From Bacteriovorax sp. MedPE-SWde (lineage in GTDB: Bacteria; Bdellovibrionota; Bacteriovoracia; Bacteriovoracales; Bacteriovoracaceae): a DNA stretch of 64,000 nt. This document shows positions 14,551-23,695 of this stretch, in pieces; the first letter of the stretch is position 1, and every line of letters begins with the position of its first letter. The stretch spans positions 62,001-126,000 of the forward strand of contig MPCU01000006.1 in NCBI GenBank assembly GCA_001874305.1. Reading direction: 5' to 3'. The position numbers and the translations under genes were made by a program. Under the pieces are notes generated by a model. It saw only the letters and a list, made by a program, of their open reading frames with translations, was not told the DNA's origin and did not search any database.

Positions 14551-16536
14551 CTATGCTACTTTCTTTTCTTCAGTCACTTCATCTGTAAAAGAAGTCTCTT
14601 CATTTTCAACTTTCTCTTTAGACTTTCCTTCAAGATTATCGAGAACAGAATTTGAAATAATTAATTTCTTTCTTAGGGCCTCTCTTGAGATTCCCATCTC
14701 TTTAGCTGCCTTAGATTTATTACCGTGATTTCTTTTTATTTCAGAAAGAATCATCTCTCTCTCAATCAATGCAAGTCGATCTTTTAAAGTAATACTATGA
14801 TCACTTACAAATGGAATTGATCCAAACATTCTTTGCTTTTGTACAACATCCACTAAAGGGATTGCACTATTTTCAAAACCTATTTCAGTTATAATATGTG
14901 ATTTAGGATTATAAAGTACCGCGCGTTCAACACATTTTCTTAGCTCTTTTACATTACCTGGCCAGTCATGTTGCTTAAGCTTTTCAAAGGCCTTTGGTGA
15001 GAAACTCTTAAGTAGAAGACCTTGCTTCTTACATTCTAGTTTCAAAAAGTATTCAATGAGATGTTCAATATCATCAGCTCTTCTTCTAAGAGGTTCCATA
15101 TGAACAAAGGCACTTGAAAGTACTTCAAATAGCTCTTTATTCCATTCACCATTTTCAGACATTTGGGCCAGATCTTTTGAAGTTGTTGCAATTATTCTTG
15201 CATCAAAACTGACTTTTCCGCCTTCCAGACCTTTATTCTTAATGACCTCTAGTAAACGTGCCTGCCATTCAAACCCAAGGTTATGTATTTCATGCAGGAT
15301 AACTGTTCCGCCTTTGGTTGATGTAAAAGCACAATCATGCTCATTAGGTCCAAAGAGTTGTTTTTCTAGTGTATCAAAATCTTTTAATTCACAATCAACT
15401 GTTTTAACTTCATTGAGACCACGGCGCCCCTCATGATGAAGAATTGTTCCATAAAGACTCTTACCAACACCAGGTTCACCATACACCATAACTGGAGTTG
15501 TGATATCTTTTAGCTTAATAATTGAGTTTCTTAATGAGCCAACATGTGGTGTTTTCCCAACAAGTGCAAACTTCCTATCAAAAGGAGTTGAAAATCTTCT
15601 AATCTGCGACTTATCAGAGATCGGGTTATAGTTATGAAATACTGAAGAGAAAACAAGAGCTAGTACTTTCATCGTCTTCTCATCTTCAATCGTAAATCGA
15701 TCTTGGTTTCTCTTATTGATAACTTCGATAACACCAATAATTTTATCTTCTCTATTATGAATAGGATGACAAATAATAGATTTTGTTTCATAGCTAAAAA
15801 GAGTATCAAATTGATTATTAAATCTAGAACGATCACTCTTGGTGTCTATATTTAGAGCAACACCTGTTGTAAAAACTGATCCGGCAATTCCAAGTCTATA
15901 ATCAAATTTTAAATTGTCCTTTTCAACTCCTAGAGCACCGACGGCCTCTAGTTCATTTGTATCTGGGTTAATTAAAAAGATACTAGATCTTTGAGCATTT
16001 AAAAGTCTAATAACTTCCTCGAGCATACTATCAAGGAAACCGTCTTTATCACCAAAGTGCGTAATATCTTTAAAGAGTGAAAGTAGAAGTGAGAACATTT
16101 CAAAACCATCACTAGCTTTTGTATATCTTTCTTTTATCGCTGAATCAATAAGACAATCTTTTAGTCTGTCAGACGAGAAACTTAGAATAAAGTTTTCTAA
16201 GAATTTATTAATTTTGTCTTCATGGTCAATCTCGACACCATAAATAATATCTTCATCTTCAAGACTGTTAGTAAATGCTCTAACTACTCTTCCAGTTAAA
16301 TCAAGATGATGTTTTTTAAACTGAAGAGAGATTGCCAATTCAGTCCCTACAGAGATTCTATCTTTTGTAGAAAATCCAAAACCAGTTAGAGAAATATCAA
16401 CGAGTTTTGCATCAGTAATATATTGCATATTTGCGAGATCATCTTCCTTTTCAATCAGAAACCTCACATCATCTGCTTCCTCAACAGGGATTCTAAATGA
16501 CTGATAAAACTTAAACTCTGAAAAACTGGCCAACAT
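14551..16536 (-). CDS. PilZ-GAF-AAA+-Fis regulator with degenerate sigma-54 motifs
   Basis: A 661-residue protein laid out like an NtrC-family activator: PilZ-like domain (about 10-110, with DISLTGFGFS), GAF domain (about 150-310), AAA+ ATPase (about 330-560) and C-terminal Fis-type helix-turn-helix (GNKSKAAKEMGISREALRKKL). Walker A GEPGVGKS is intact. The sigma-54 contact loop, normally GAFTGA, reads CAFTST, and Walker B, normally GGTLFLDEI, reads GGTVILHEI with the key Asp replaced by His. Classical sigma-54 activation and efficient ATP hydrolysis are therefore doubtful. The PilZ domain suggests c-di-GMP input, but the RxxxR part is not obvious. Confidence 0.88.
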   Translation of the reverse strand: MLASFSEFKFYQSFRIPVEEADDVRFLIEKEDDLANMQYITDAKLVDISLTGFGFSTKDRISVGTELAISLQFKKHHLDLTGRVVRAFTNSLEDEDIIYGVEIDHEDKINKFLENFILSFSSDRLKDCLIDSAIKERYTKASDGFEMFSLLLSLFKDITHFGDKDGFLDSMLEEVIRLLNAQRSSIFLINPDTNELEAVGALGVEKDNLKFDYRLGIAGSVFTTGVALNIDTKSDRSRFNNQFDTLFSYETKSIICHPIHNREDKIIGVIEVINKRNQDRFTIEDEKTMKVLALVFSSVFHNYNPISDKSQIRRFSTPFDRKFALVGKTPHVGSLRNSIIKLKDITTPVMVYGEPGVGKSLYGTILHHEGRRGLNEVKTVDCELKDFDTLEKQLFGPNEHDCAFTSTKGGTVILHEIHNLGFEWQARLLEVIKNKGLEGGKVSFDARIIATTSKDLAQMSENGEWNKELFEVLSSAFVHMEPLRRRADDIEHLIEYFLKLECKKQGLLLKSFSPKAFEKLKQHDWPGNVKELRKCVERAVLYNPKSHIITEIGFENSAIPLVDVVQKQRMFGSIPFVSDHSITLKDRLALIEREMILSEIKRNHGNKSKAAKEMGISREALRKKLIISNSVLDNLEGKSKEKVENEETSFTDEVTEEKKVA

Positions 16537-16748: not shown

Positions 16749-17681
16749 GTGATTTTTGAAGGATCTGAAAAGAAGGCCGAAATCATACTTAATAAAGAAC
16801 ACCAAGGACTACTTTCTAAAAAAGATAGTTTTTGGGAACAATTAGTGACGAAGGCCAATGCTTCTATACTGTCAAAAATAGAAAATAGTGTCGTAAAAGC
16901 ATTCCTACTATCAGAGTCTAGCCTCTTTGTTTGGGAAGATAGGATTCTTCTAATAACATGTGGCCAAACGACTCTCATAGATGCGATTAAGTTCTTTGTT
17001 AAAGAGTTGGGACAAGATTGTATTAATCAAATTATATTTCAAAGAAAGAATGAATACTTCTCACACCTTCAGCCAACAACTTTCTATGACGATATAGAAC
17101 GTCTCCAAGAAGACTTTGACGGTGTTGCTCTTAGAATGGGGAATATAGATGATCATCATAATTTTATCTATCATCTAAAAAGAGATTATACCCCCAACAC
17201 TACTGATCATACTTTTGAGTTTCTCATCTATGAGATATGTGGTGAAGCACGAAGCTTCCTCATGCAAGAAGGTCTTACGTCGATTCAAGTAAGAGAATTT
17301 CTCAAACTAGATAGAATTCTTCCAGGGTTTACGATTGATGATTTTGTATTTAAACCTTATGGTTATTCCCTAAATGCGATTAACGGTGACAACTATCTAA
17401 CGATACATATTACACCACAACAAGTTAGTCCATACGTTAGCTTTGAAACTGACATTGATATTAGAGAACATATTCCAACACTAATAGATATTTTCCAACC
17501 AGGCTCTTATGACTTTATAGAGTTTCAACCTGATAGGGAAAACTCTTGTGGAAAGCAAAGACCACAACAATATGAGTTAAAAACTGAAGTAGAGAGTTTT
17601 CTTTCATGTGGCTACAAAATGTATTTCTCACACTACTACAAGAAAAGAAAAGATAAGTTAAAACCATTTCAATTATTATAA
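16749..17681 (+). CDS. speD: S-adenosylmethionine decarboxylase proenzyme, eukaryotic type
   Basis: Makes decarboxylated AdoMet, the aminopropyl donor for spermidine. The protein does not look like bacterial SpeD/SpeH but like the eukaryotic enzyme. FEGSEK at the N-terminus carries the essential glutamates (E4, E7). LLSESSLFV holds the self-cleavage site, with the pyruvoyl precursor S57 after E56. C71 lies in LITCGQTTL, and S207 and H220 lie in GYSLNA and LTIHITP. All these residues match human Ser68, Cys82, Ser229 and His243 in order. Start is GTG with AAGG upstream. It is directly followed by speE. Confidence 0.92.
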   Translation: MIFEGSEKKAEIILNKEHQGLLSKKDSFWEQLVTKANASILSKIENSVVKAFLLSESSLFVWEDRILLITCGQTTLIDAIKFFVKELGQDCINQIIFQRKNEYFSHLQPTTFYDDIERLQEDFDGVALRMGNIDDHHNFIYHLKRDYTPNTTDHTFEFLIYEICGEARSFLMQEGLTSIQVREFLKLDRILPGFTIDDFVFKPYGYSLNAINGDNYLTIHITPQQVSPYVSFETDIDIREHIPTLIDIFQPGSYDFIEFQPDRENSCGKQRPQQYELKTEVESFLSCGYKMYFSHYYKKRKDKLKPFQLL

Positions 17682-18570: not shown

Positions 18571-19026
18571 ATGAAATACTGGCTAATGAAATCAGAACCT
18601 GATGCTTTTTCCATTGATGATCTCAAAGAAAAGAAGGCCAAGGGAGAACATTGGGACGGCGTGAGAAATTACCAGGCGAGGAACTTCATGAGAGATAATA
18701 TGAAACTCGGTGATAAAGTTCTCTTCTACCATTCAAGCTGTAAAGTACCAGGCGTAGTCGGTATTGCAAGTGTCATAAAAGAATCACATCCTGATCACAC
18801 GAGCTGGGACCCAAAAAGTAACTACTATGATCCCAAATCTACTCCTGAAGATCCACGTTGGTTTATGGTTGATATAAAGTTTGAAAAGAAATTCTCTCGA
18901 ACAATTTCGTTGAAAGAGCTAAAGGAACATATTGAACTTAAAGACTTAAAACTCCTTCAAAAGGGCTGTCGACTATCCATTATGCCGATAGCGAAGAAAG
19001 AGTTTGAATTTATAAAGTCACTTTAG
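18571..19026 (+). CDS. EVE-domain protein
   Basis: A 151-residue protein that is almost entirely an EVE domain, a PUA-like fold thought to bind modified bases. MKYWLMKSEPDAFSIDDL, WDGVRNYQARNFMR and DKVLFYHSSC are diagnostic of the family that includes human THYN1. It starts 9 bases after speE, so it is probably in the same transcript, though no functional link with polyamines is known to me. Confidence 0.9.
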   Translation: MKYWLMKSEPDAFSIDDLKEKKAKGEHWDGVRNYQARNFMRDNMKLGDKVLFYHSSCKVPGVVGIASVIKESHPDHTSWDPKSNYYDPKSTPEDPRWFMVDIKFEKKFSRTISLKELKEHIELKDLKLLQKGCRLSIMPIAKKEFEFIKSL

Positions 19027-21790: not shown

Positions 21791-23695
21791 TCATTTTAAG
21801 TATGTGTAAGATCTTAAGCAATCTTCATAGAAGTCGGTTAACTTAACACCTTGTCTAGGGTTTAGATTACCCTCACGAATTTGGAGATCAATTGCCTTTT
21901 TAATGGTAAAGGCCATATATTGGGGATTGTACTGCATAGTAGAGAGAACATTTTCCGCCGATGATCCCTTAATTACTTCTTCAATATAGAACCCTTTTGA
22001 GTCTTGCTCATGTGCATATACATGAACTTCATTAAGCCTTCCAAAGAGATTGTGCATATCTCCCATAACGTCCTGATAGGCGCCAGTAAGGAAAATACCC
22101 AAGTAATATGGCTCCTTATCTAGTTCATGAACAGGAATAGTTTTCTTTATACCTTCTTCATCACTTATAAATTTATCAATCTTTCCATCACTATCACATG
22201 TAATGTCAACGAGTGAACATCTCTTAGTAGGCTTCTTCTCAAGTCTATCAATAGGTACAACAGGGAGGATTTGATCAATCGCCCAACTATCAGCGGCCGA
22301 TTGAAAAACAGAAAAATTACATAGGTACTGCCCAGACAAGAATTCTTCTAACTCTTCACCTTGCTCAAAGTTGATTTCATTCTTTGAGATATATTTAGCA
22401 ACCTTCTTTAAGATTCGCCAATATATCGTTTCAATTTTTGCCCGTTCAACAAGACTTAAAATACCAAGTTTAAACGCATTTAATGAGTCTTCTTTAAATT
22501 TTACTGTATCGTTATAAACCTCTTGCCAGTTTTTTAGCTTATCAAACTCTTCTTCGGCCTCTCTCATATTAGACACAAGATGAGACTCTCCTTCGATCGC
22601 CTGAGTATCAAAAGAAACGGAACTGGTATCAATCTCACCAATTATATTTGTAATCACACAACTATGATGTGCAGTTAAGGCACGACCACTTTCAGTAATA
22701 ATATTAGGATGGCCTACACCTTCTAAGTCACATATTTGCTTGAGTCCATAAACAATATCTGCAACATACTCATCTAGTTGATAATTAATTGAAGAGTCAT
22801 TAGTCGAAGCAGTTCCATCATAGTCAACGCCCAGGCCTCCCCCAACATCAAAGTATTCGAGATCAACTCCAAGCTGAGAAAGTTTACAATAAATTCTTCC
22901 TCCTTCTGCAATCGCCTCTTTTATCGCTCTAATATCTGTTATCTGACTTCCAATATGGAAATGGAATAACTTTAAACAATCAAGAAGTTCCTTTCCTTTT
23001 AAAAGTTCAACAGCATTTATAATTTCACTTATAGTTAAACCAAACTTTGCCTTATCTCCACCTGAAGATTCCCATTTACCTCTTCCCTTAACTGTCATTC
23101 GCGAACGAATCCCTATAATAGGCCTAACTCCAGTTTCCTCACAAAGAGATATAAGTTTAGTAAGTTCACTAAACTTTTCAATAACTACAACTATCTTTCG
23201 GCCAAGCTTACAACCAAGTAGGGCAAGCCTTAGATAATCTTCATCTTTATAGCCATTAAGTATAGTGAGAGAGTTTTCATTGGTATTATAAGCTAAAACA
23301 GAGAGAAGCTCGGCCTTACTACCGGCCTCAAGCCCAAAGTTATACCTTTGCCCTGCTTCAACTATTTCTTCAACCACTTCTCGCATTTGATTTACTTTTA
23401 CAGGATAAACGCCAAAGAATTTGCCATTGTATGAGGCCTCATCAATTATGTCATCAAAGGTTTTATTAAGAGTGCGAACTTGGGCACGCAGTATATCGTG
23501 AAATCTAATGACGACTGGAAAGCTAACACCTTGAGAGATCATCTCATCAACAACATCTTTTATAGCTATATCTTGAGAAGGAAATTCTTTATTAGGTATG
23601 ACAGCTAATTGACCACTGTCATTAATTGAAAAATGGCCGGCACCCCATTTCGAGACGCCATATGTCTTATCTGCTTCTTCTAGAGACCATGTCAT
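21791..23695 (-). CDS. speA: Biosynthetic arginine decarboxylase
   Basis: PLP enzyme (634 residues) that makes agmatine from arginine, the first step to putrescine. The N-terminal barrel has the PLP lysine in YPVKVNQ, then FGLEAGSKAEL, HFHIGSQ and the glycine loop DVGGGLGVDYDG; the C-terminal part has VDITCDSDGKID and YLGIFLTGAYQD. Agmatinase or agmatine deiminase genes are not in the window. The speDE pair lies 3 kb away, so polyamine genes are loosely clustered. Confidence 0.95.
   Translation of the reverse strand: MTWSLEEADKTYGVSKWGAGHFSINDSGQLAVIPNKEFPSQDIAIKDVVDEMISQGVSFPVVIRFHDILRAQVRTLNKTFDDIIDEASYNGKFFGVYPVKVNQMREVVEEIVEAGQRYNFGLEAGSKAELLSVLAYNTNENSLTILNGYKDEDYLRLALLGCKLGRKIVVVIEKFSELTKLISLCEETGVRPIIGIRSRMTVKGRGKWESSGGDKAKFGLTISEIINAVELLKGKELLDCLKLFHFHIGSQITDIRAIKEAIAEGGRIYCKLSQLGVDLEYFDVGGGLGVDYDGTASTNDSSINYQLDEYVADIVYGLKQICDLEGVGHPNIITESGRALTAHHSCVITNIIGEIDTSSVSFDTQAIEGESHLVSNMREAEEEFDKLKNWQEVYNDTVKFKEDSLNAFKLGILSLVERAKIETIYWRILKKVAKYISKNEINFEQGEELEEFLSGQYLCNFSVFQSAADSWAIDQILPVVPIDRLEKKPTKRCSLVDITCDSDGKIDKFISDEEGIKKTIPVHELDKEPYYLGIFLTGAYQDVMGDMHNLFGRLNEVHVYAHEQDSKGFYIEEVIKGSSAENVLSTMQYNPQYMAFTIKKAIDLQIREGNLNPRQGVKLTDFYEDCLRSYTYLK

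Follow-up and report, generated by a model that had tools for sequence, protein, structure and literature searches.

The spermidine locus in the 64,000-nucleotide stretch of Bacteriovorax sp. MedPE-SWde that we analysed (the window) raises the question of how a bacterium came to encode an S-adenosylmethionine (AdoMet) decarboxylase (AdoMetDC) of the eukaryotic type next to a spermidine synthase gene. The sequence-only reading had taken the product for a eukaryotic-type proenzyme unlike SpeD or SpeH, encoded directly upstream of speE, and had suggested either lateral acquisition or an old bacterial source. We have now confirmed that the open reading frame, here called amd (Table 1), is a complete class 2 (eukaryotic-type) AdoMetDC proenzyme gene, and speE does follow it directly. 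In a Pfam profile search, the product matched PF01536 over its whole length (residues 2-293, E=1.1e-54, 186 bits against a curated cut-off of 22.2), and the class 1 SpeD/SpeH profile PF02675 was absent from its Pfam matches. The top PDB match was human AdoMetDC (1msv; residues 3-302, E=2e-29). The gene starts with GTG, with a Shine-Dalgarno-like AAGGTG close by on the 5' side, and the same start (M-x-FEG) is common to its relatives. With TIGR00535, a stricter, eukaryote-centred NCBIfam equivalog, the product scored 115 bits, below the cut-off of 233, which marks it as a divergent class 2 member and no near copy of a eukaryotic gene. The window gene adds one member to the bacterial class 2 AdoMetDCs, which have already been published; as far as the available text of those papers describes them, they are of the same kind as amd (Li et al. 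2019, Biochem J 476:2579; Li et al. 2023, PMC10407285).

Table 1 Features of the spermidine locus (positions counted from the first nucleotide of the window)
Gene	Product	Position	Strand	Evidence
	Regulator with PilZ, GAF, sigma-54 activation and Fis-type HTH domains, adjoining the operon on the other strand	14551..16536	-	
amd	Class 2 S-adenosylmethionine decarboxylase proenzyme, 310 aa	16749..17681	+	ORF, Pfam, PDB match, alignments, fold
speE	Spermidine synthase (polyamine aminopropyltransferase), 287 aa	17698..18561	+	TIGR00417 and NF002010 over cut-off
	EVE-domain protein, 151 aa, third gene of the probable operon	18571..19026	+	Domain match
speA	Biosynthetic arginine decarboxylase, 634 aa, first step to putrescine	21791..23695	-	TIGR01273 and NF003763 over cut-off

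For alignment with the product we used the AdoMetDCs of human, potato and Trypanosoma brucei, each verified against PDB chains. All the motifs named in the sequence-only reading aligned with the human enzyme: FEG.E, LLSES/S (the slash marks the cleavage site), TCG and GYS...TIHITP correspond to human F7-E11, L65-S69, T81-G83 and G227-P246, respectively. The predicted self-cleavage bond lies between E56 and S57 (codons 16914-16919). Every residue required for self-processing and catalysis is present (F3, E4, E7, L54, E56/S57, C71, F201, S207 and H220); among them S57, C71, S207, H220, E4 and E7 are the equivalents of human S68, C82, S229, H243, E8 and E11. The ES/S-type cleavage site, the putative pyruvoyl serine and the counterparts of C82, S229 and H243 are thus shared with the human enzyme (AMD1). 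Across 39 bacterial sequences including that of the window, the equivalents of human F7, E8, E11, L65, E67, S68, C82, D174, F223, S229, H243 and E256 are invariant; F7, L65, E67 and F223 are substrate residues. Differences from the human protein were also found. Identity is only about 29-31%, the 310-residue chain is without several eukaryotic loops, human K80 is replaced by I, and the gene adjoins speE. Human E247, a substrate contact, is replaced by Q224, as it is by Q in 27 of the 39 bacterial sequences.

The residues that contact putrescine in human AdoMetDC are E15, D174 and T176 (PMC3686867). Their predicted equivalents in the amd product are E11, D153 and T155, and the three positions are kept in 38, 39 and 38 of the 39 bacterial sequences, respectively, so that the bacterial enzymes are predicted to be stimulated by putrescine. 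The T. brucei enzyme has Q at the T176 position. Plant AdoMetDCs are not stimulated by putrescine, and the putrescine site is therefore no strict requirement of class 2.

An AlphaFold model of the product (mean pLDDT 93.5) matched the human proenzyme 1jl0 along its whole length (Z 35.9, rmsd 2.3, 295 residues), and the two-domain fold is that of the human structures 1jen, 1msv and 1jl0. The N-terminal half of the model resembles class 1b SpeD of Thermotoga maritima (1tlu; Z 9.3) and the C-terminal half resembles the SpeD-like domain of human spermine synthase (Z 7.9). The protein therefore appears as two fused class 1b-like domains with a cleavage site, the single SES, in the first only. Class 1b SpeD is likewise a self-processing pyruvoyl enzyme, often encoded next to speE, but it has about 120 aa and one domain, forms a homodimer and shares no Pfam sequence match with the amd product. 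The SpeD-SpeDC fusions of Victivallis and Desulfotignum, which have two domains and were proposed as precursors of class 2 (PMC10407285), differ in their length of about 270 aa and in their recognisable class 1b domains. A profile-profile comparison of class 1 SpeD with class 2 gave a weak, short similarity in the expected register in both domains (P 0.002-0.03).

Family, residues, fold, gene order, distribution and trees were computed, and with them we infer self-processing, activity and co-transcription. By analogy with the human enzyme, the 310-residue chain would fold into a two-domain alpha-beta-beta-alpha sandwich and cleave itself between E56 and S57 via an ester intermediate and beta-elimination, which would leave a pyruvoyl group at the new N terminus of the alpha chain. 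This group would form a Schiff base with AdoMet, and decarboxylation would follow with C71 as the likely proton donor. SpeE, probably translated from the same mRNA, would then move the aminopropyl group onto putrescine supplied by SpeA and agmatinase.

The gene order agrees with such a role. The amd stop and the speE start are separated by 16 bp, a spacing that suggests co-transcription, and speE has its own RBS-like AAGAGGT; a promoter and terminator scan gave results no better than chance. The EVE-domain gene directly follows speE in 14 of 16 loci of the same family, the order amd-speE-EVE being kept. The speA gene lies about 3 kb beyond this group on the opposite strand, an agmatinase over the curated cut-off is encoded elsewhere in the genome, and no class 1 SpeD (PF02675) was found in the genome. 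Taken together, the position of amd 16 bp upstream of speE, the missing class 1 speD and the presence of speA and agmatinase make it probable that spermidine synthesis depends on amd alone for its decarboxylated AdoMet. Read most simply, the host would convert arginine into agmatine, then putrescine and finally spermidine, and would draw its decarboxylated AdoMet from the class 2 enzyme only. It could be argued that the product is a neofunctionalised AdoMetDC homologue acting on arginine or ornithine, since such substrate shifts are common among class 1b SpeD homologues (PMC10407285) and human E247 is replaced by Q224. We consider this very improbable: the gene adjoins speE in a genome with no other AdoMetDC, speA and agmatinase are already present, and the equivalents of F7, L65, E67 and F223 are invariant.

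The class 2 gene is common in the phylum of the host. PF01536 was detected in 74 of 290 Bdellovibrionota genomes (73 over the cut-off), representing 46 of the 152 genera sampled, and class 1 SpeD in 136. Both classes occurred together in 8 genomes against 34 expected (nominal P 9e-14, with the relatedness of genomes ignored), and PF02675 was found in none of the 23 other class 2 genomes checked in groups outside Bdellovibrionota. The bacterial class 2 gene thus mostly stands in place of speD, usually upstream of speE, and in the lineage of the window it would have replaced class 1 SpeD. Across GTDB species, at least 386 class 2 loci in at least 8 phyla were confirmed, a lower bound since each was picked up by a match to one of two short motifs. 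The best 80 of them belong to Desulfobacterota, Spirochaetota, Bdellovibrionota, Myxococcota, Elusimicrobiota, Acidobacteriota, Planctomycetota and Gammaproteobacteria. As most of these are metagenome assemblies, an isolated unexpected label may reflect a binning error. In random genome samples of five phyla outside Bdellovibrionota the gene was rare: 3/245 Planctomycetota, 1/246 Desulfobacterota, 1/119 Elusimicrobiota, 2/148 Acidobacteriota and 6/139 Myxococcota, counted without the genome on which each sample was centred. No class 2 relative was found in the plasmids or viral contigs searched, the latter in agreement with a published virosphere survey. Weak PF01536 matches in ABC-transporter-like open reading frames (L139, L141) were dismissed as chance.

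Several unusual relatives were observed in the course of this survey. A 266-aa protein of one Bdellovibrionota genome (G231, L138:587-1387, minus strand), encoded next to a membrane protein gene, has a class 2-like N-terminal half (VLSESTLL...LTCG; PF01536 E=4e-8) and a C-terminal half with a faint PF02675 match (E=0.09); it may be a truncated or intermediate form of AdoMetDC. Open frames of 410-447 aa in Acidobacteriota (L157:661-1884, plus strand; L158; L159) match weakly and only to the class 2 C-terminal GYS..HVTP block. The L157 protein (407 aa, E=3e-4) has no visible ES/S site, and these frames are perhaps a distant paralogue family. In Bdellovibrionota groups f6 and f17 (L128-L137), class 1b SpeD-aminopropyltransferase fusions of about 430 aa occur in place of class 2 and SpeE; animal spermine synthase has been traced to fusions of this type (PMC12803844). 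Genome G134 encodes a 363-aa protein (L144:787-1878, plus strand) with a SpeD-like N-terminal domain followed by a multi-helix membrane domain, and several of the few genomes with both AdoMetDC classes contain SpeD-matching open frames of about this length. In genome G260 (L142:695-1267, plus strand), a disrupted class 2 gene is joined in frame with the 3' end of speE; unknown residues from a scaffold gap lie inside the open reading frame, and an assembly collapse is the probable cause.

The linkage to speE reaches far beyond the host family. In 108 of 143 loci speE lies directly downstream of the class 2 gene on the same strand (4 further loci are cut by contig ends, and some genomes were counted twice). 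The pair was seen in members of Bdellovibrionota, Desulfobacterota, Spirochaetota, Elusimicrobiota, Acidobacteriota and Planctomycetota. Among these 143 loci it was absent from the Myxococcota and Gammaproteobacteria, and the use of a SpeE partner therefore varies across the class 2 family. In a careful SpeE tree, the partners of class 2 genes formed one clade (100/99). Outside it lay the Desulfobacterota SpeE proteins with a linked class 1 SpeD, the synthases fused to SpeD in other Bdellovibrionota, and the eukaryotic spermidine synthases. This indicates that the pair was formed once, in bacteria; according to the best reading, it was then inherited and transferred as a unit. A quick SpeE tree had nested the Desulfobacterota-type within the Bdellovibrionota-type clade, whereas the careful tree made them sister groups and the single Brocadiia sequence switched sides; no direction of transfer was therefore drawn from SpeE.

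The careful decarboxylase tree contained 82 sequences, three of them eukaryotic, and its bootstrap was not fully settled. The window protein grouped with its congeners (100/96), one of them 66% identical to it, next with its own family, and within a large bacterial clade B (Bdellovibrionota, Elusimicrobiota, Acidobacteriota, Myxococcota, other Planctomycetota and Gammaproteobacteria). The outcome that would have refuted the sequence-only reading, nesting among ordinary SpeD proteins, was not obtained. Nor was lateral acquisition by this bacterium from a eukaryote supported. That the host species or genus recently took the gene from a eukaryote, such as a protist prey or host, is a natural thought for a eukaryotic-type family found in a bacterium, but it is contradicted by this nesting, by the low identity to the human enzyme, by the amd-speE-EVE order kept in the family and by the many genera of the phylum that have the gene, and we regard it as extremely improbable. 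We are, on the other hand, highly confident that amd encodes a class 2 AdoMetDC proenzyme that feeds SpeE and replaces class 1 SpeD, and that it was inherited within Bdellovibrionota in an old bacterial amd-speE pair with no recent eukaryotic uptake.

The deeper origin of the class is a separate matter. A branch of 100/99 separates clade B from the eukaryotes and a second bacterial clade A, which consists of Desulfobacterota, Spirochaetota, one Brocadiia and one record labelled Myxococcota. The eukaryotes are monophyletic (99/90) and attach between A and B, closer to A. Class 1 SpeD was rejected as an outgroup, the profile-profile similarity being too weak and short for a tree. The minimal ancestor deviation (MAD) and minimum variance methods both placed the root between B and A plus eukaryotes (MAD 0.188, as compared with 0.241 for the eukaryotic stem), under which the eukaryotic enzyme would be a branch of the bacterial family. 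In the NQ.pfam non-reversible test the best root was only about 1 log unit better than others, and the eukaryotic stem lay only 0.4 log units below the root separating A plus eukaryotes from B, so that this test favoured neither clearly. With three eukaryotes and an unsettled bootstrap, the position of the eukaryotes relative to the bacterial clades and the rooting are suggestive only. The old bacterial source of the sequence-only reading fits better than lateral acquisition, given the eukaryotes lying between two bacterial clades and the single bacterial amd-speE pair; the domain of the original donor is not fixed by the rooting.

One reading, which we put a little short of an even chance, is that class 2 AdoMetDC arose and was paired with speE in bacteria, and that the eukaryotic ancestor acquired the decarboxylase, but not speE, from a bacterium related to the donors of the Desulfobacterota-type clade. 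According to Li et al. (2023; PMC10407285), citing Li et al. (2019), in the text available, some bacteria have class 2 enzymes whose phylogeny points to a eukaryotic source, and the class is a eukaryotic invention. One ancient transfer from a eukaryote would then have seeded all bacterial copies, which would later have gained speE and spread. This published view, a serious but somewhat doubtful possibility, accords with the single eukaryotic clade, since the bacteria all fall together if the root is set on the eukaryotic stem, and with the small deficit of that root in the non-reversible test. It is opposed by the MAD and minimum variance roots, requires one transfer followed by spread to at least 8 phyla, and leaves speE uncarried, as eukaryotic spermidine synthase lies outside the linked SpeE clade. 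Being a view on the remote ancestry of the class, it does not conflict with the function proposed for amd. What we found differs from the picture of "some bacteria" with a eukaryotic source given in that text: the genomes number in the hundreds, an amd-speE pair is shared, and the eukaryotes join between two bacterial clades.

A literature search on spermidine or AdoMetDC in Bacteriovorax or Bdellovibrio found no relevant report. Four points may be new: how large the bacterial family is, that it stands in for speD, that its pairing with speE goes back to a single ancestral event, and that the tree splits three ways, so that the direction of transfer given in the literature is still open. AdoMetDC is an essential eukaryotic enzyme and a drug target. 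The breadth and depth of bacterial class 2 and its linkage to speE make the claim of eukaryotic invention directly testable. If the class was a bacterial invention, the putrescine-binding site would predate eukaryotes. The bacterial class 2 proteins also provide compact, divergent enzymes for studying self-processing and putrescine activation.
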